24,751 nucleotides of DNA from a virus: the IMG/VR virus record IMGVR_UViG_3300030101_001995, positions 1 through 24,751 of that record; one strand, given 5' to 3'. Below, one piece after another: positions 5,400 through 15,562 of this stretch. The first letter of the stretch is position 1. Every line of letters starts with the position of its first letter. Both the position numbers and the translations under genes were made by a program. The notes beneath the pieces were generated by a model, which was given only the letters and a program-made list of their open reading frames with translations, searched no databases and had not been told where the DNA came from.

Positions 5400-5504
5400 A
5401 TGTACGGATATACTTTATTATTAATATGCTACATCATTATTATTTTTATTATTGGTAAGCACACTATGGCAAAAGTAAAAGAAGATTTCCATAATGAAAA
5501 GTAG
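5400..5504 (+). CDS. Tiny membrane protein (34 aa)
   Basis: A 34-residue frame with an Ile/Leu-rich helix at about residues 5-19 and a basic-acidic tail. It starts two bases after the previous stop codon begins its overlap region and ends 11 bases inside the integrase gene. GAAGGGA at about 5385-5391 can serve as ribosome site. Likely a single-span inner-membrane peptide; function unknown. Confidence 0.55.
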   Translation: MYGYTLLLICYIIIIFIIGKHTMAKVKEDFHNEK

Positions 5505-6405
5505 TGACATAAATACCTTACGGGACCTGGTGGATTATTATTTACATAGTCCACAGTTCCTGGCTCTTAGAGGGAGGACACAAAAAGATTACGAGTATGC
5601 CTTGAATCGGGTTATGCTTACCCCTATCACAACGGACCGGGCCCTGGGGGATACAGAGTTAGAGAGCCTGGGTGTTGCTGACTGTAAGATAGCCTATCAG
5701 CAATGGGTAAAGAGAGGCGTTAGAATGGCTAATGTTATGTCTATGGTAACGTCTTTAGTTCTCAGCGTAGGAGAGGAGTTGGAGATAGTTATGCGTAACC
5801 CCATGAGGAATGTCAAGAAAATGACGGAGGGGCAGCGTAAAGTAATGTGGACACCGGACCAGGTAAAAACATTTTTAGATGTTGCTTACGGGGAATACAA
5901 GTGGCGTAGTATAGGATTGATAGTACACATGGCATATGCTTTTGCTCAGAGGGTTGGTGATATGCGATGTTTAAAATGGGATAACATAAACTTTGACACC
6001 CAAAGATTAGACCTGGAGCAATCAAAGAGAAGGGCAGAGGTACATTTGCCTATTGAGGACAGTTTGTTTGCGATGCTTAAAGAACAGCATAATGATTTTG
6101 ATTTTCAAGAGTTTGTAGCACCACACCCGTACCCCAGGAGTGGAGAGTATAAAGTATATCACCTAAACGAGGTGAGCCGTATGGTTAATCATGTAAAAGA
6201 TAGGGCCGGACTACCCAAGAACCTAACAGCAATGGACATGAGAAGAACAGCTATAACAGAAATGGTTGAGGCCGGGGTAGACACGACACAAATAATGGCA
6301 GTATCCGGGCACAGTAGTCCTGGGTCCATGAGGCCATATATAAAACACACATTTAATTCAGCGAATAACGCATTGACAAGAAGGGAGAGTTATAAAAATG
6401 CCTAG
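5494..6405 (+). CDS. int: Tyrosine recombinase / phage integrase
   Basis: A 303-residue tyrosine-family site-specific recombinase, expected to integrate phage DNA into the host chromosome. The N-terminal core-binding (SAM-like) domain covers about residues 1-105, and the catalytic domain about 115-300. Catalytic residues by pattern are Arg153 (AQRVGDMR), Lys178 (EQSKRR beta-hairpin), Arg250 (MDMRRT), His273 (SGHSS) and the nucleophile Tyr282 (MRPYIKH). In the usual HxxR box the His is replaced by Met247. The length is typical for a simple integrase without a long arm-binding domain. It starts inside the previous tiny gene and overlaps the primase gene by 8 bases, so it is co-transcribed with the replication genes rather than sitting at a prophage edge. 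No excisionase or repressor gene is recognisable nearby. Confidence 0.92.
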   Translation: MKSSDINTLRDLVDYYLHSPQFLALRGRTQKDYEYALNRVMLTPITTDRALGDTELESLGVADCKIAYQQWVKRGVRMANVMSMVTSLVLSVGEELEIVMRNPMRNVKKMTEGQRKVMWTPDQVKTFLDVAYGEYKWRSIGLIVHMAYAFAQRVGDMRCLKWDNINFDTQRLDLEQSKRRAEVHLPIEDSLFAMLKEQHNDFDFQEFVAPHPYPRSGEYKVYHLNEVSRMVNHVKDRAGLPKNLTAMDMRRTAITEMVEAGVDTTQIMAVSGHSSPGSMRPYIKHTFNSANNALTRRESYKNA

Positions 6406-7186
6406 TATACCATCACGAGATTTTTTAGAGGGTATAAATGTAAAAGAGGGAGAGTCACTTACATTAGATTGTCCCAAGTGTAATGGAGTAAAGAAGTTTT
6501 CAATCAGTAACCAGGACGGGTTGCTGCTATACAATTGTTATCGGGCCTCTTGTGATGTTAAGGGTTCCTACATAACAAATATGTTGGCCGATACAATTAA
6601 GAAGAAACTACAAGGGGCTACAGAGAGTAAGACCCCGGAGAAGTTTGTTATGCCGGAGCGTATCACGGACGGGGACAATGCTTATGTTCAAAGGTTTAGA
6701 AGGAGGTGGAACCTATCTATGGAACTATTCTATGATTGTAAGGATAGTAGAGCTGTGTTTCCTATATACAACAATGGTAGGCTAGTAGATGCGATAGGGA
6801 GGGCTCTATATAGTGCACATCCTAAGTGGTACAGATACGGGGGAGAGGCCAAGTATTACGCACACAAAGTTTCTGCTTGTAAAAGTGTGGCAGTAGTGGT
6901 AGAGGATTGCATATCAGCTACAGTTGTAGGGGAATCTATGTTAGGTATAACCGGGGTGGCTTTACTTGGTACAAACTTAATGCGAGAGCACAAGGAATAC
7001 CTGGACAGATTCGACAAAGTAATAGTGGCTCTTGACCCGGATGTTATAGGCAAGACCATTGAGTATACGAAAGAGTTAAAGAGTTATTGTGATCCATCAG
7101 AAGTGTACGCTTTGCACATTGAGGATGACCTAAAGTACAAAAGACCTAATGATTTCAACAAGTTAAGGGAGCTAATTGATGTCTAA
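6398..7186 (+). CDS. DNA primase (zinc-binding and TOPRIM domains, T7 gp4 N-terminal type)
   Basis: A 262-residue primase that makes RNA primers for lagging-strand synthesis. The N-terminal zinc-binding domain has C25/C28 and C47/C52. The TOPRIM catalytic core shows VVVEDCISA with Glu169 and VALDPD with Asp213 and Asp215 at about 165-217. The size and content match the primase half of T7 gene 4; the helicase half is encoded separately downstream. GGGAGAG precedes the ATG, which lies 8 bases before the integrase stop. The end overlaps the nuclease gene start. Confidence 0.88.
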   Translation: MPSIPSRDFLEGINVKEGESLTLDCPKCNGVKKFSISNQDGLLLYNCYRASCDVKGSYITNMLADTIKKKLQGATESKTPEKFVMPERITDGDNAYVQRFRRRWNLSMELFYDCKDSRAVFPIYNNGRLVDAIGRALYSAHPKWYRYGGEAKYYAHKVSACKSVAVVVEDCISATVVGESMLGITGVALLGTNLMREHKEYLDRFDKVIVALDPDVIGKTIEYTKELKSYCDPSEVYALHIEDDLKYKRPNDFNKLRELIDV

Positions 7187-7703
7187 TAAGGATGAAAAAA
7201 GAAAGGCCGTGTTGGAGTATTACAGAAAATACAACGCAAAGAGGCCAGAAAGGAACGCAGATAGAATGTTTGTTAATGGTAAATTCATACCCAAATCACA
7301 CCCCCTTTGGAAGAGAGGAAGGTACAAGTCGTTTAACGATGCAGCTTTTTCTTCCCTGGCTAATTACATATTATCAACAGAGGGGGAAGTGTACATTTTA
7401 CAGAACCCGGCCTGGGATAACTGGTATAAAATAGGGAAGGCCATTGACTCTGAGGATAGATGTAACGGGTATCAGACGGGCAGTCCACACCGGGACTATA
7501 AGATTGTAACATCTAAAAAGTTTAGCCATAGAGGAATAGCTGAAAAGATGGCACACTCTTTAGCTGAGGGGCTCAGTCGTAAGAGAGCTAATGAATGGTT
7601 CTATATAAAGCACCTGGGTAAAGAAGACTTTGATAAGATGTTAAACTTAATTGATGGATTGATAGAGGAGAAGAAACAGAATGATAGAACTAGCACTAAT
7701 TAG
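7179..7703 (+). CDS. GIY-YIG-like nuclease, T5orf172 type
   Basis: A 174-residue protein with a basic N-terminus (residues 1-50) and a T5orf172/GIY-YIG-like domain. The domain shows EVYIL at about 70-74, WYKIGKA at 82-88, Arg94, a central helix with Glu122 and Glu130, and NEWF at 138-141. Proteins of this fold include phage homing endonucleases and DNA-repair-like nucleases. The start is the ATG at 7179 (AAGGGAG upstream); a TTG one codon earlier is less likely. The gene sits between the primase and helicase genes, overlapping both (8 and 23 bases), so it is fully built into the replication operon. Fold assignment is moderately sure; the function (homing, host DNA breakdown or recombination) is open. 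Confidence 0.72.
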   Translation: MSNKDEKRKAVLEYYRKYNAKRPERNADRMFVNGKFIPKSHPLWKRGRYKSFNDAAFSSLANYILSTEGEVYILQNPAWDNWYKIGKAIDSEDRCNGYQTGSPHRDYKIVTSKKFSHRGIAEKMAHSLAEGLSRKRANEWFYIKHLGKEDFDKMLNLIDGLIEEKKQNDRTSTN

Positions 7704-8904
7704 AAGCCTCATGCAGCGTGACTTCTACGAGGATCACAAAGGCAGTAAGTGTCCGGACAAACTTTTTAGTAAAGATGTTCGTAAAATAAAGAATACCCTG
7801 GATGAAACGATGGGTAAGTATGAGAGGGATGTAACGCTTACAGAATTACAGGCTCTGTTCTTTGCAAATAACGCCACGCTAACATCAGCAAACAAATCTT
7901 CTTTTGAGATATTGTTTAGTAAGATAGCCAAAGAAGAGGCCATGAATAATGAGATAGCCAAAGAGGTTTTGTCTAAACTGTTTCAACAGATGGTGGGTGA
8001 AGAGGTAGCTAACCTGGGATTTGACTATGTGAATGGTACAAAGAATAACCTAGAGCCATTAAGAAACATCTTGGATAACTATCAAGATGACTTCACACCT
8101 AGCTTTAGATTTGAGGGAGATGACATCAGTTTTAATACTTTGGTGGATCACCTTAACTTGAAGTTCCAATGGAAGTTTAACATCCCATCTCTACGCAGAC
8201 GGGTTGAGGGGCTCAGTGGTGGGCACTTTGTAATCGTAGGGGCTAGGCCGAATACTGGTAAGACCTCGTTCCACGCCAGTATTTTAGCGTCTGAGGGGGG
8301 ATTCATAGACCAGGGGGCAAAGTGTGTTGTTTTGTGCAATGAGGAGGCGTACAAAAGGGTAGGTTTAAGATATCTGTACTGCAAATCGAATATGTCTAGC
8401 GATCAGGTCCTGGAGAATAGGAACCTGGCGTTGAAGAGGTACGATCCTATCAAGCAACTTCTATCTATTAAGGATGCAACAGATAAGAATATGGATTACG
8501 TTGAGCAACTTGCGAAAAGTGTCAACCCTGACATAATTATTCTTGATATGGGTGATAAATTTGCAACAGCCGGGTCAGAAAGATCAGATATTTATCTCAA
8601 AGAAGCAGCAATTCACGCAAGAAATATTGCCAAGAAGTATAATTGCGTTATAATTTGGATGTCCCAACTTTCAGCAGAGGCTGAGGGTAAGATAAATGTT
8701 AACCAATCTATGCTTGAGGGCAGTAAAACAGGGAAGGCAGCAGAGGCAGACTTGATGTTACTAATTAGTAAGAACCCTGACATTGAAGGACAAGACAGTA
8801 ATGACCCTCAGCGTCACATAAGACTAGCTAAGAATAAACTGACCGGGTGGCACGGTACTGTTCATGTTGAACTAGATGTAGAAACAGGTAGGTATTCAGC
8901 ATGA
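7681..8904 (+). CDS. Replicative DNA helicase (DnaB / T7 gp4 C-terminal type)
   Basis: A 407-residue RecA-fold hexameric helicase expected to unwind DNA at the phage fork. The N-terminal part (about 1-140) is helical. Walker A is GARPNTGKT at 187-195 with Lys194, the catalytic Glu is at about 221 (CNEEAYKR), Walker B is IIILDM with Asp289, and the sensor glutamine is Gln329 (WMSQLS). RLAKNKLTG at 381-389 resembles the family's C-terminal arginine-finger/DNA-loop region. GAGGAG precedes the ATG at 7681, 23 bases inside the nuclease gene. Primase and helicase are separate polypeptides here, unlike T7 gp4. The stop overlaps the zinc-ribbon gene (ATGA). Confidence 0.9.
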   Translation: MIELALIRSLMQRDFYEDHKGSKCPDKLFSKDVRKIKNTLDETMGKYERDVTLTELQALFFANNATLTSANKSSFEILFSKIAKEEAMNNEIAKEVLSKLFQQMVGEEVANLGFDYVNGTKNNLEPLRNILDNYQDDFTPSFRFEGDDISFNTLVDHLNLKFQWKFNIPSLRRRVEGLSGGHFVIVGARPNTGKTSFHASILASEGGFIDQGAKCVVLCNEEAYKRVGLRYLYCKSNMSSDQVLENRNLALKRYDPIKQLLSIKDATDKNMDYVEQLAKSVNPDIIILDMGDKFATAGSERSDIYLKEAAIHARNIAKKYNCVIIWMSQLSAEAEGKINVNQSMLEGSKTGKAAEADLMLLISKNPDIEGQDSNDPQRHIRLAKNKLTGWHGTVHVELDVETGRYSA

Positions 8905-9074
8905 ACTGTTGGCATTGCACCACTGAATTAATATGGGGGGCAGACTTTGATGGAGATGACTACGGGTGTGGTGAAACATATTCTATAGTATCTACATTAA
9001 CCTGCCCTAAATGTGAAAGTTACGTTGAGGTATACTACCCCAAGGAGAAAAAGAAGAATGAAGATAATACTTGA
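8901..9074 (+). CDS. Small zinc-ribbon-like protein (57 aa)
   Basis: A 57-residue protein with two CxxC pairs: C3/C6 (NCWHC) and C35/C38 (TCPKC), plus an extra Cys at 23. This spacing looks like a small zinc ribbon. It starts in an ATGA overlap with the helicase gene, overlaps the DNA polymerase start by 17 bases and supplies the polymerase's AGGAG site. It may be a small accessory of the replisome, inferred from position only. Confidence 0.7.
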   Translation: MNCWHCTTELIWGADFDGDDYGCGETYSIVSTLTCPKCESYVEVYYPKEKKKNEDNT

Positions 9075-11106
9075 TGTTGAGAACACAACGACTAAACGGA
9101 ACGGGAAGTTACACCTAGACCCGTTTGAGCCCGGCAACTCTCTAACTTTAGTGGGGGTGCTAGAGTGTTTGAAGGATGATAGCCAGATATTTGTATTCGA
9201 TCATACGGAAAGAAAGATAACGGATGATGATTCTGACACTAAACTACAAGCCATACTGGATAAGACAGAACTTCTAATAGGACACAACCTACAGTATGAT
9301 CTTCAATGGTTGTGGTCCTGTGGATTTAAGTATGATGGTCCCATATTTGATACCATGCTTGGTGATTATGTGCTGCAGCGTGGACAAAAGGGCTCCGTCA
9401 GTTTGGAAAACTGTGCCATACGATACAACCTGGACATGAAAAAGTCGGACACACTAAAAGATTATTTCAGACGAGGATATCAAACGGATGAGATACCTCT
9501 TGATGATTTATCAAAGTACCTACACCAGGATCTTATCGTTACCAAAGGGCTATACTGGAGATTGATTGAAGAGTATGCTAAACCAGAGGCACAGTCACTG
9601 GTGAATGTAAGAGGTATAACTAACGATGTGTGCAAGACTTTAACAAGAATGTATATGAATGGTTTTAAGATAGATAAGTCTGCACTACAGCAAGTGCGTG
9701 AGGACTTTGAGAAAGAACTAACAGATATCGAAAGGCGTTTACAGGCCCAGGTAAGAGAGCTTATGGGGGACACGCCAATAAATCTCAACTCCCCGGAGCA
9801 AGTTAGTCAGGTTATATACTCCCGGATATTGTATGATAAGAAGAAATGGGGTGTCGTGTTTGACAATGTGGAAAGCAAAGACGAATTTAAGCAAGTTGTT
9901 AAAGACAACAGTGCCATAATGGTTAAGACGAAAGCACACGTTTGCCGGACCTGTAACGGGAAGGGCAAGATACTTAAGACTAAGAAAGATGGCACACCTT
10001 TTGCTAAACCAAACAGATGTCCCGACTGTGACACCAGGGGATATCAACTAACAAAGCTAAGACAAATGGCAGGACTAGGTTTCTTCCCACCATCAAAGGC
10101 CTGGGTTAGTGCCAATGGTTTCTCTACAAGCAAGGGTAGTCTGGATAATCTTATTAACATTGCTAAAGCAAAAGATATGACAACAGCAGAAACTTTTTTG
10201 ACAGACCTTAAAAGGCAGAGTGCTGTGTCTAGTTATCTCTCTGCGTTTGTTGATGGCATAGAACACTACACAAAAGACGATGGGTTCCTACATGTCAGTC
10301 TTACACAACACGTTACGGCTACCGGACGTTTTAGTGGACGCAATCCTAACATGCAGAATATGCCTAGAGGTGGTACGTTTCCCGTTAAGAAAGTGTTTAT
10401 ATCTCGTTGGAACGGAGGAAAAATAATTGAAGCCGATTTTGCACAACTAGAGTTTAGGGTAGCAGCATTATTATCTCAGGATAAAGTTGCCATGAAAGAA
10501 GTGTCCACAGGATTTGATGTGCACTCCTACACGGCAAAGATTATCACTGAGGCCGGGCAACCAACGTCTAGACAAGAAGCTAAGGCACACACCTTTGCAC
10601 CTCTCTACGGGGCTACAGGCTTTGGCAGAACGAAAGCTGAGGCTCAGTATTACACACACTTTATGGATAAATACAAAGGTGTAGCAAGGTGGCACAAAAA
10701 GTTAGGTGATGAGGCTATCAATCTTGGTAGAATAAAGATACCATCGGGTAGGCAGTATGCTTTCCCTGATGTAGAGAGAAGGGCAAGTGGAACTCCAACC
10801 CACTTTACCATGATTAAGAACTATCCAGTCCAGGGCTTTGCCACTGGGGATATAGTTCCTATTGTGTTGTTGGAGATAGAGCACAGATTAGATGGTTATA
10901 AGAGTATGTTAGTAAATAGTGTTCACGACTCTGTGGTATTAGACGTTCACCCTCTGGAGGAGGAGGATGTTTTAACTATCATAGATGGTGTAAATAGTAG
11001 TTTAAAAAGTATAGTAGAATCGTACTATGATATTGATGTTAATGTTCCGTTATTACTTGAATCAAAAATAGGTGATAATTGGCTTGACGTTAAAGATGTA
11101 GTCTGA
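9058..11106 (+). CDS. DNA polymerase, family A, with internal DnaJ-type zinc finger
   Basis: A 682-residue replicative DNA polymerase. The 3'-5' exonuclease domain (about 1-190) shows D6-V-E8, IGHNLQYD at 74-81 and Y154-x3-D158. Between it and the palm lies an inserted module with C296-R-T-C299-N-G-K-G and C321-P-D-C324-x3-G, which is the DnaJ CxxCxGxG pattern. Polymerase motif A is EADFAQLEFR with Asp460. Motif B (O helix) has R505, K509, F513 and Y517. Motif C is VHDSVV with His623-Asp624. F513 aligns with E. coli Pol I Phe762. The start at ATG 9058 follows AGGAG; an upstream in-frame start at 9013 lies within the zinc-ribbon gene. The partial DnaJ domain resembles what I recall for phage HMO-2011. 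Confidence 0.95.
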   Translation: MKIILDVENTTTKRNGKLHLDPFEPGNSLTLVGVLECLKDDSQIFVFDHTERKITDDDSDTKLQAILDKTELLIGHNLQYDLQWLWSCGFKYDGPIFDTMLGDYVLQRGQKGSVSLENCAIRYNLDMKKSDTLKDYFRRGYQTDEIPLDDLSKYLHQDLIVTKGLYWRLIEEYAKPEAQSLVNVRGITNDVCKTLTRMYMNGFKIDKSALQQVREDFEKELTDIERRLQAQVRELMGDTPINLNSPEQVSQVIYSRILYDKKKWGVVFDNVESKDEFKQVVKDNSAIMVKTKAHVCRTCNGKGKILKTKKDGTPFAKPNRCPDCDTRGYQLTKLRQMAGLGFFPPSKAWVSANGFSTSKGSLDNLINIAKAKDMTTAETFLTDLKRQSAVSSYLSAFVDGIEHYTKDDGFLHVSLTQHVTATGRFSGRNPNMQNMPRGGTFPVKKVFISRWNGGKIIEADFAQLEFRVAALLSQDKVAMKEVSTGFDVHSYTAKIITEAGQPTSRQEAKAHTFAPLYGATGFGRTKAEAQYYTHFMDKYKGVARWHKKLGDEAINLGRIKIPSGRQYAFPDVERRASGTPTHFTMIKNYPVQGFATGDIVPIVLLEIEHRLDGYKSMLVNSVHDSVVLDVHPLEEEDVLTIIDGVNSSLKSIVESYYDIDVNVPLLLESKIGDNWLDVKDVV

Positions 11107-11140: not shown

Positions 11141-12022
11141 GTGGAAAATAATTTAGCTATAATAGGAAAGTCCCCGTCAGATCTAGCCGAACTGATGGGT
11201 ATGTCAAACGTACCTGCTAAAAGCACATCAGCTTTGGCAGAGATTAAACAGGTCCATCAAAACGTGATGGGCACAAAGGAAGTAGAAGGTGAGGCTATGG
11301 AAGTTGCTATAGTAAAAGCCGGGGCTTTCTCTGTTACGTTTCCGGACGATACAATATATTACAGTGACAAGGTAACAATCAGACCTTTCATGCAACGCTT
11401 TCAGTTTCAGCGATACGATAAAAACTATCAAAGACCTGATGGTGGTGAAGGCCGAATGTTACGAACAGTAATGGCAACATCTTTGAATGGTGACTTGAAG
11501 GATAACTATGGGGGCTTCAACTGTGGCAGACCCTCTGGTTATGTCAAGGACTTCAATGCGTTGCCACAAGAAACACAAGAACTGATGAGAGCAACGGATA
11601 GGTTTAAAGTTCTCTTTGGTCTGTGTACACTCGACAAAGCTAAGGATGCTAATGGTAAACCTGTGAATGTTAAAGAGTTTCCTTTCCTGATGCGAATAAA
11701 GAACAGAGATAGCTTCAAAGCTACCACTGATATCTTTAATCAGATTCAGAGAAAGAATAAGCTGCCCATTCAACATCTGTTGCATCTTGGTTCAGAAGTA
11801 AAGAGTATACCTAGTGGGGCTACTTACGCTGTCCTTAAGCCTAAGCTAGGTAAAGAAGTAGAGATTACCACTGACGATCAAGAGGTGTTGAATAACTTTG
11901 TTGAGTGGGTTGAGTCTATGAACTCCATAACTCTCAGTAAATGGGAGGAGCATAAAAGACCTGATGAGTTGTCCGATCAGGAATCTGATATTGCTCTGAA
12001 GATTGTTGAGATAGAGGAGTAG
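11141..12022 (+). CDS. Probable ssDNA-binding protein (293 aa)
   Basis: A 293-residue protein that I do not recognise by a specific motif. It has an apparently beta-rich central region with many aromatic residues (about 65-135, FQFQRYD and YGGFNCGRPSGY segments) and an acidic C-terminus with Glu/Asp clusters over the last 20 residues, ending IVEIEE. An acidic tail is a hallmark of phage and bacterial SSBs (T7 gp2.5, T4 gp32). Together with placement between polymerase and exonuclease, this suggests an SSB. The start is GTG, supported by TAGGAG (11126-11131). It is the first gene after the candidate internal promoter, which would suit a product needed in large amounts. Gene reality is near certain; the function is inferred. 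Confidence 0.5.
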   Translation: MENNLAIIGKSPSDLAELMGMSNVPAKSTSALAEIKQVHQNVMGTKEVEGEAMEVAIVKAGAFSVTFPDDTIYYSDKVTIRPFMQRFQFQRYDKNYQRPDGGEGRMLRTVMATSLNGDLKDNYGGFNCGRPSGYVKDFNALPQETQELMRATDRFKVLFGLCTLDKAKDANGKPVNVKEFPFLMRIKNRDSFKATTDIFNQIQRKNKLPIQHLLHLGSEVKSIPSGATYAVLKPKLGKEVEITTDDQEVLNNFVEWVESMNSITLSKWEEHKRPDELSDQESDIALKIVEIEE

Positions 12023-13513: not shown

Positions 13514-13682
13514 GATTACAGCAGAGGTTGAGATAGACGATGAGTCTAGCCATCTACCTGTGACCTGCGATGCAGCATCTAAGAAAAAAGAAGGCGAAAA
13601 AGTTATATCTGATATAGTTAAAGATCTTCTCTACGATATTGACGATATTGAAATTAACAGCATAAAGGTGACAAAGGTATGA
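13503..13682 (+). CDS. Hypothetical protein (59 aa)
   Basis: A 59-residue protein with an N-terminal beta strand (KFKITAEVEI) and an acidic helical second half ending in another strand-like segment. GAGGAG precedes the ATG. It overlaps the DUF3310 gene by 11 bases and the reductase gene by 4 (ATGA). No family recognised. Confidence 0.65.
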   Translation: MKFKITAEVEIDDESSHLPVTCDAASKKKEGEKVISDIVKDLLYDIDDIEINSIKVTKV

Positions 13683-15562
13683 ACGATTATCAAAAATTTA
13701 TTGCAGTATCTAGATATGCTAGGTGGTTGCCAAACGAAAACAGAAGAGAAACATGGGAAGAAACTGTCAACAGATACGTTGACTTTATGTCGTTAAAGGT
13801 GAAGGGACATTTGCCTGTGCAGCAGATTAAAGATGCTATAACTAAACTAGAAGTTATGCCCTCTATGAGAGCCCTGATGACAGCCGGGCTTGCGTTGGAG
13901 AGAGATAATACTGCCGGGTACAACTGCAGCTATCTACCCGTAGATGATCCTAAGTCTTTTGACGAGGCTATGTATATATTATTATGTGGGACAGGCGTTG
14001 GTTTTTCTGTTGAGCGTCAGTATGTTAGTCAGCTACCAGAAATACCTCAGGTAATAGAACAGGTTGATACTGTTATAAAAGTACAGGACAGTAAAGAAGG
14101 TTGGGCGAGATCACTACGCAAGCTAATAGGACACCTATATATGGGAGAGTCGCCTCATTGGGATGTGTCTGATATAAGACCTGCCGGGTCTAGACTAAAG
14201 ATATTTGGAGGTAGAGCATCAGGACCAGGACCCCTGGTAGATCTATTTAACTTCACAACGTCATTATTTAAACACAATGCCGGACGTAAACTATCTAGTT
14301 ACGATTGTCACAATCTAATGTGTAAGGTTGGAGAGGTTGTTGTATCAGGGGGCGTTAGACGTTCTGCTATGATTAGTTTGTCTAATCTTTCGGACCAACG
14401 TATGCGTCACGCTAAGTCGGGACAGTGGTGGGAAACAGCACCACAGATGGCTTTATCTAACAACTCCGTATGCTACACTGATAAACCTGATGGTGAAACA
14501 TTCTTGAGAGAGTGGACAGCCCTGGTAGAATCAAAGTCAGGGGAGCGTGGAATATTTAACAGGCTATCTGCAAAGGAACAGGCTAATAAGTTTGGCAGAA
14601 GAGATCCTAACTACGAGTTTGGAACGAACCCTTGTAGTGAAATAATACTTAGACCTTATCAGTTCTGTAACTTAACAGAGGTAGTAATACGAGAAAAAGA
14701 TAAGTTTGAAGACCTGAAAAGAAAAGTTATGCTTGCGACTATACTTGGCACAGCACAAGCTACATTAACTAAGTTTCCTTATTTGCGTAAGGTATGGAAG
14801 AATAACACTGAAGAGGAAAGACTACTGGGTGTTAGCCTTACAGGAATAATGGATAACGAACTAACCAGTGGAAAGAAACATGGACTTGATAAAACACTTG
14901 AAGCACTACGGCAGGTCGCTGTTGAAACGAACAAAGAATGGTCAGCGATCTTTGGGATCCCACAAAGCACGGCTATCACCTGTGTCAAACCAAGTGGGAC
15001 AGTATCACAGCTTGTTGACTCAAGCAGTGGTATCCACCCTCGTCATAGCAGTTATTATATCCGTACTGTTAGGGGCGATAATAAAGATCCTCTTACTAAC
15101 TTCATGGTAGATAGTGGCATACCTAACGAGCCAGACGTAATGAAGCCAGATACACAGACGGTGTTTAGTTTTCCTATGAGATCTCCTAGAAAGTCTGTTA
15201 TGAGGGACGATATGACGGCCATAGAGCAGCTGCAAACCTGGCTTACATATCAGAGGCACTGGTGTGAACACAAGCCCTCAGTGACCATCTCTGTGAGGGA
15301 TAATGAATGGATGGAAGTAGGAGCGTTTGTTTTTAAACACTTTGACGAAATGTCAGGTGTATCATTCTTACCACACTCCGATCATACTTATCAACAGGCC
15401 CCCTATCAGGAGTGCACAGAAGATGTATACAATAATTTTAGCAGTGAGTTCGGACATATAGACTGGGATAAATTTAAGAGTTATGAGAAAGAAGACAATA
15501 CACAGTCTTCGCAAACATTTGCATGTTCAGGGGACGCTTGTGAGATTGTTGATATAACATGA
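13679..15562 (+). CDS. nrdJ: Class II (adenosylcobalamin-dependent) ribonucleotide reductase
   Basis: A 627-residue monomeric-type class II reductase that makes deoxyribonucleotides using adenosylcobalamin and needs no oxygen. Active-site pattern: Cys83 (YNCSY) and Cys330 (FCNLTE) as the redox pair, Cys319 as thiyl radical site within N317-P-C-S-E321. The finger-loop region NCSYLPVDD and CGTGVGFS, SGGVRRSAM at 223-231, CVKPSGTVSQLVDSSSGIHPRH at about 435-456, and the C-terminal redox pair Cys616/Cys621 (C-x4-C) are all present. It is shorter than the Lactobacillus enzyme (739). The ATG lies in an ATGA overlap with AAGGTGA upstream. No thioredoxin or glutaredoxin gene is visible nearby, so the reductant is presumably from the host. 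The host, or its surroundings, must supply B12. Confidence 0.94.
   Translation: MNDYQKFIAVSRYARWLPNENRRETWEETVNRYVDFMSLKVKGHLPVQQIKDAITKLEVMPSMRALMTAGLALERDNTAGYNCSYLPVDDPKSFDEAMYILLCGTGVGFSVERQYVSQLPEIPQVIEQVDTVIKVQDSKEGWARSLRKLIGHLYMGESPHWDVSDIRPAGSRLKIFGGRASGPGPLVDLFNFTTSLFKHNAGRKLSSYDCHNLMCKVGEVVVSGGVRRSAMISLSNLSDQRMRHAKSGQWWETAPQMALSNNSVCYTDKPDGETFLREWTALVESKSGERGIFNRLSAKEQANKFGRRDPNYEFGTNPCSEIILRPYQFCNLTEVVIREKDKFEDLKRKVMLATILGTAQATLTKFPYLRKVWKNNTEEERLLGVSLTGIMDNELTSGKKHGLDKTLEALRQVAVETNKEWSAIFGIPQSTAITCVKPSGTVSQLVDSSSGIHPRHSSYYIRTVRGDNKDPLTNFMVDSGIPNEPDVMKPDTQTVFSFPMRSPRKSVMRDDMTAIEQLQTWLTYQRHWCEHKPSVTISVRDNEWMEVGAFVFKHFDEMSGVSFLPHSDHTYQQAPYQECTEDVYNNFSSEFGHIDWDKFKSYEKEDNTQSSQTFACSGDACEIVDIT

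Follow-up and report, generated by a model that had tools for sequence, protein, structure and literature searches.

We show that the family A DNA polymerase encoded in the window, by which we mean the whole analysed stretch of 24,751 bases, an IMG/VR virus contig, carries an insert at what alignment places as the tip of its thumb, and that this insert holds a predicted zinc finger resembling one half of the DnaJ zinc domain. The finger as such is already known, since a partial DnaJ domain has been published as the hallmark of HMO-2011-type polymerases; what we add is its location at the thumb tip, its likeness to DnaJ motifs II and III, and the conservation of its basic loop. We infer, with about an even chance of being right, that this zinc-tipped thumb arm gives a firmer hold on the primer-template duplex, and thereby higher processivity, to a polymerase with no thioredoxin domain of the T7 type. 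The relevant features are the following, with the evidence for each in brackets.

7681-8904, plus strand: DnaB-like replicative helicase (Pfam DnaB_C, E=9e-14).
9058-11106, plus strand: family A DNA polymerase, HMO-2011 type, 682 aa (Pfam DNA_pol_A, E=2e-51; DNA_pol_A_exo1, E=3e-7).
9058-9582, plus strand: 3'-5' exonuclease domain, about aa 1-175 (Pfam match at aa 40-169; motifs DVEN, GHNLQYD and YLHQD).
9676-9819, plus strand: thumb helices H (aa 207-236) and H1 (aa 246-254) (AlphaFold2, pLDDT at least 91; H1 aligned with Klenow 583-591).
9832-10113, plus strand: complete H1-H2 loop insert of the thumb, about aa 259-352 (alignment with polymerases lacking it: E. coli Pol I, StenR_269 and L199).
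9922-9942, plus strand: predicted ascending stem strand, aa 289-295, including K290 (AlphaFold2 secondary structure).
9943-10041, plus strand: predicted zinc finger, aa 296-328, CRTCNGKG ... CPDCDTRG (conserved cysteines; DnaJ profile and structure matches).
9943-9945, 9952-9954, 10018-10020 and 10027-10029, plus strand: C296, C299, C321 and C324 (translation).
9955-10017, plus strand: basic loop between the cysteine pairs, aa 300-320 (charge, K/R conservation).
10042-10068, plus strand: predicted descending stem strand, aa 329-337 (AlphaFold2 secondary structure).
10132-10269, plus strand: thumb helices H2 and I, aa 359-404 (AlphaFold2; alignment with Klenow from about residue 611 on).
10270-11103, plus strand: palm and fingers subdomains, aa 405-682 (Pfam DNA_pol_A; motifs TATGRFS, ADFAQLE and VHDSV).
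11141-12022, plus strand: neighbouring gene for a 293-aa protein with an acidic C-terminal tail, putative partner of the finger (profile family, tail charge).

The Met at 9058 aligns with the first residue of related polymerases and was taken as the start, although the list of open reading frames opens a longer frame at 9013. Catalytic motifs, together with a whole-model Foldseek search whose best matches were Bacillus and E. coli Pol I, place the protein in family A, and because the exonuclease and polymerase motifs are all found, the polymerase is otherwise complete, in agreement with a first-pass annotation made from the sequence of the window. According to the pertinent passages of PMC9038755, PMC6918029 and PMC8528129, a partial DnaJ central domain in which the CXXCXGXG motif occurs twice is common to all reported HMO-2011-type polymerases, and the presence of this domain between the exonuclease and polymerase domains is used to define the group; within what those passages of PMC9038755 and PMC6918029 describe, the domain is not mapped to the thumb tip. 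The window polymerase likewise combines exonuclease, partial DnaJ and family A polymerase domains in one protein (PF01612, PF00684 below its cutoff, and PF00476, in that order), the same three Pfam domains with which the HMO-2011 record is annotated. In tblastn comparisons with phage genomes, its full-length identity is 64% to CRP-603 and CRP-2, 58.7% to HMO-2011, 41% to HTVC033P, and 35% to CRP-212 and CRP-738, which bears out the first-pass annotation in treating the finger as a feature of HMO-2011-type phages. Members of the group (HMO-2011, CRP-1/2/3, HTVC033P) share with it the architecture, the gene neighbourhood and the four cysteines at 35-64% identity, and the order primase, helicase, polymerase is that of HMO-2011. 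Between the primase and helicase genes of the window we also observed a T5orf172 (GIY-YIG-like) gene (7176-7703, plus strand), possibly encoding a homing endonuclease, which is absent between these genes in HMO-2011.

Four of the eight cysteines of the polymerase form the pairs C296-x2-C299 and C321-x2-C324, and translation of 9058-11106 places them exactly where the first-pass annotation had put C296-x2-C-x-G-x-G and C321-x2-C-x3-G. The first motif, CRTCNGKG, has the form CxxCxGxG, whereas the second, CPDCDTRG, is CxxCxxxG and departs from the full CXXCXGXG published for the second motif of the group. The pattern C..C.G.G.{10,30}C..C occurred 0 times in 20,000 shuffles of the polymerase protein. 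Relatives were gathered from five scans of viral contigs, one scan of genome contigs and phage records, a sample dominated by marine contigs in which 276 sequences span the region; L067 and L210, two truncated contigs, entered just one of the cysteine counts. Both CxxC pairs are kept in all 276, down to about 35% identity, which rules out chance or variable cysteines and disposes of the concern, raised at the outset, that they might vary in close relatives. The pairs are separated by 21 residues in 259 of these sequences and by 33 in the other 17, a group around CRP-738 that appeared fingerless under a narrow pattern and that a wider pattern shows to have intact cysteines and a loop 12 residues longer. 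An alignment of 61 diverse sequences has C296, C299, G301, G312, C321, C324 and G328 invariant, while position 326 is glycine in just 35 of the 61, so that a literal requirement for two CXXCXGXG motifs is too strict. Literal motif counts also miss members, since the cysteines are retained where a glycine of the first motif is lost (L046-L059, L224, L281) or where the loop is 12 residues longer (CRP-738 group, L092). By column entropy the finger (1.68 bits) is more conserved than the remainder of the insert (2.1-2.3 bits). As an aside on the sample, polymerase contigs of the same name and length (L279/L280 and L284/L285) occur in the unrelated bins Flavobacteriales TMED123 and Neomarinimicrobiota MED589, and are probably mis-binned phage contigs.

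The insertion point was set by alignment to E. coli Pol I and to the polymerases StenR_269 and L199, both of which lack the insert. Some 90 residues occupy the H1-H2 loop at the thumb tip in place of Klenow residues about 595-602, immediately preceded by helix H1 (INLNSPEQVSQVIYS; Klenow FNLSSTKQLQTILFE) and immediately followed by the H2 region (NGFSTSKGSLDNL; Klenow GGAPSTSEEVLEEL). On this alignment the zinc-finger insert belongs inside the thumb subdomain, at its tip; this refines the first-pass annotation, which placed the finger between exonuclease and palm: the finger sits in the H1-H2 loop of the thumb and does not form a separate domain. The same annotation correctly noted that T7 polymerase has no such zinc site. 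The thioredoxin-binding domain of T7 polymerase is likewise inserted in the thumb of a phage replicase of family A, and it too has basic residues; it has no zinc motif, however, and it sits before the H1 motif, whereas the insert of the window polymerase comes after that motif (INLNSPEQVSQVIY), between H1 and H2. The two therefore use different thumb insertion points, which rules out their equivalence. The insert of the G20c polymerase was also rejected as a parallel, as it is located at the end of the exonuclease domain and not in the thumb. Thumb inserts of plant organellar polymerases (of which insert 1 is lysine-rich) and of DNA polymerase theta are comparable as extra segments that alter DNA handling, but no zinc motif is described for them and our searches found no relationship. 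The MEP401 and QDWS535 polymerases have a longer H1-H2 loop with no cysteines in it, indicating that this loop tolerates growth. In a tree of the polymerases, the fingerless StenR_269 and L199 branch among those with fingers, on a long branch with weak support, a placement compatible with a single origin of the finger and with more than one. As a separate observation, a polymerase divided between two genes is seen in MEP401, in an ICP2-like Vibrio phage and in Alcaligenes phage QDWS535 (L087 2992-5102; L089 2953-5046; L091 2983-4898), with a small open reading frame between the two halves in MEP401.

The full polymerase was modelled with AlphaFold2 using 61 relatives as input, with a mean pLDDT of 91.2 and values of 84-91 for the blocks of the finger. 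The insert is predicted to consist of two short helices (261-266 and 274-283) and then a pair of strands, 289-295 and 329-337, with the finger between them, so that in this confident model the finger caps a two-stranded stem growing from the thumb tip. Modelled alone (pLDDT 89.4), the insert has as its top PDB matches three human DnaJA2 chains (probability 1.00; an rmsd of about 2.6 A across 39 columns), and BSD2, a DnaJ-like chaperone, ranks lower; the E-values are weak (0.14), owing to the small size of the finger. Structure prediction, which had been put forward as a check, thus returned a confident compact finger with the DnaJ zinc domain as its best match, an outcome that concerns the fold and not the distances between cysteines. 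Sequence profiles agree with the earlier description of the cysteine pairs as DnaJ-type. Pfam DnaJ_CXXCXGXG (PF00684) matches residues 290-331 of the window polymerase with E = 4e-4, its score of 20.9 bits falling short of the curated gathering cutoff of 32.7, and it recognises 57 of 61 diverse relatives with E-values of 0.01 or lower, the lowest being 2.5e-6. Conversely, a profile of the finger selects motifs II and III of E. coli DnaJ (C161 to C186) with 23.7 bits, where shuffled DnaJ reaches 7.4 at most, and finds 1exk in the PDB with E = 2e-5.

Sequence and model together suggest that the finger resembles half of the DnaJ/Hsp40 zinc domain (PF00684; 1exk, DnaJA2 7zhs), with motifs II and III aligned and a similar predicted local fold. 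A DnaJ central domain has four motifs and two zinc sites; the polymerase holds two motifs and has a longer, basic loop, and because only motifs II and III are resembled, a single zinc site is expected. Given the invariant four cysteines and the fold match, these residues very probably bind zinc at one site. The apparent likeness to DnaJ is compatible with common descent and with convergence alike. A search of 50,697 phage records for the same finger gave matches at E < 0.05 to HMO-2011-type polymerases alone, Q antiterminators and DnaJ-like proteins of Bacteroides phages matching non-significantly. Phage antitermination protein Q (7ubj) has half-DnaJ-like cysteine pairs and a match to the finger that is weak or non-significant, but it is a different protein in a different context.

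This resemblance to DnaJ zinc centre 2, in sequence and fold, raises the possibility that the finger does no more than stabilise the thumb, or that it is a DnaJ-like element serving to recruit host DnaK or to assist folding, and a passage of PMC9038755 points to the role of DnaJ in lambda replication. We consider such functions improbable. Unlike DnaJ, the polymerase has two of the four motifs and no Pfam match to a J domain; moreover, the conserved lysines of the loop exceed the needs of a plain structural plug, and in StenR_269 and L199 the thumb exists without the finger.

The charge of the loop bears on how the finger might act. Among 242 relatives, the segment between the cysteine pairs has a mean net charge of +6 (range +2 to +10), while the polymerase outside it is near neutral. 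Lysine or arginine is kept in at least 92% of relatives at positions 290, 307, 309 and 320, of which K290 is K or R in 61 of 61, and K307, K309 and R320 (as K/R) are the conserved residues inside the loop. The finger is nevertheless not the most basic part of the polymerase, since a median of 14% of equal-length polymerase windows equal or exceed it in basicity, and conserved K/R columns are marginally enriched (P = 0.04).

In the proposed grip, zinc would stiffen the loop between the cysteine pairs, and the loop lysines would lie along the backbone of the new duplex as it exits the polymerase; such a stiff, basic arm would have a favourable position at the thumb tip for holding the duplex that leaves the active site. 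The thumb tip would then hold DNA more tightly and dissociate less often, giving a phage replicase that lacks the T7 thioredoxin-binding domain a built-in processivity. We count in favour of this mechanism the position of the insert, the charge of the loop, the constraint on the finger and the predicted fold. Against it, the DnaJ zinc domain acts on proteins and not on DNA, and the basic surface would suit an acidic protein partner equally well. Studies of other polymerases connect the thumb to DNA retention: T7 and human mitochondrial polymerases bind processivity factors through thumb inserts, and the lysine-rich thumb insert of plant organellar polymerases has been modelled beside duplex DNA (PMC7699545), while the title of Minnick 1996, cited through PMC10061031, reports reduced DNA affinity, processivity and frameshift fidelity for a Klenow thumb-subdomain mutant. 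The broader proposal, that HMO-2011-type phages possess in this half-DnaJ-like arm an intrinsic processivity element separate from the borrowed thioredoxin of T7, we hold more tentatively, at somewhat below an even chance.

The main rival to the DNA-grip model is that the finger serves as a docking site for another replication protein; the likeliest candidate is the acidic tail at the C-terminus of the 293-aa neighbour, which could be a single-strand-binding protein. The tail averages about -6 over its last 28 residues and is acidic in most relatives, even where the body of the protein diverges to about 36% identity, and the family is present in 240 loci by profile search; BLAST detected it in 192 loci, in 117 of which it is found no more than 250 nt from the polymerase. 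There are precedents in T7, where gp4 and gp2.5 dock through their acidic tails on basic patches of the thioredoxin-binding domain (PMC12593628, PMC7699545), and in a mobile-element polymerase predicted to bind its own SSB at the thumb tip (PMC10061031). However, Pfam, PHROGs and PDB profiles yielded neither an identification of the neighbour as an SSB nor any family name for it, so that we refer to it as a candidate single-strand-binding or replisome protein. Coevolution of finger charge with the acidic tail proved unconvincing once redundancy was reduced: the correlation falls from rho -0.42 in the raw set to a weak rho -0.25 in a less redundant set, in which 13% of polymerase windows correlate with tail charge at least as strongly. 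We regard partner docking as rather unlikely, although less so than the structural or chaperone-like functions considered above.

Contact with the replicative helicase, or some other coupling of polymerase and helicase at the fork, would fit the closeness of the two genes in the isolates examined, and appears to us the least probable of these explanations. From family A structures, an arm at the thumb tip is expected beside the exiting duplex and not at the fork ahead; in addition, no acidic tail comparable to the one on T7 gp4 is present in the helicase, whose C-terminal end is GTVHVELDVETGRYSA. The first-pass annotation had also suggested as a contact the 57-aa protein with two CxxC motifs encoded just upstream. 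This candidate found no support, since homologs were detected in 9 loci, mostly away from the polymerase and adjoining it only in close relatives, a count from which short flanks may hide copies. The gene itself (8901-9074, plus strand), whose product has a weak zinc-ribbon match, overlaps the helicase stop with its start (ATGA) and the polymerase start with its end, by 17 nt.

HMO-2011-type phages rank with the most widespread viruses of the ocean, and in one marine virome dataset their polymerases account for as much as 19.7% of those of family A (PMC9038755). The hallmark domain has so far served as a marker, and we found no functional test of it in the open-access literature, outside of which an earlier structural or biochemical account may exist; the thumb-tip location, the predicted zinc site and the conserved lysines make its mechanism directly testable. 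If the grip model is true, a phage replicase would hold DNA by a zinc arm that replaces a processivity factor, and the finger would be a small module that could be grafted onto other family A polymerases.

Other genes of the window include a cell wall hydrolase (PF07486; 4735-5163, plus strand), a B12-type ribonucleotide reductase (13679-15562, plus strand) and a tyrosine integrase (5494-6405, plus strand), the last of which suggests a temperate phage.
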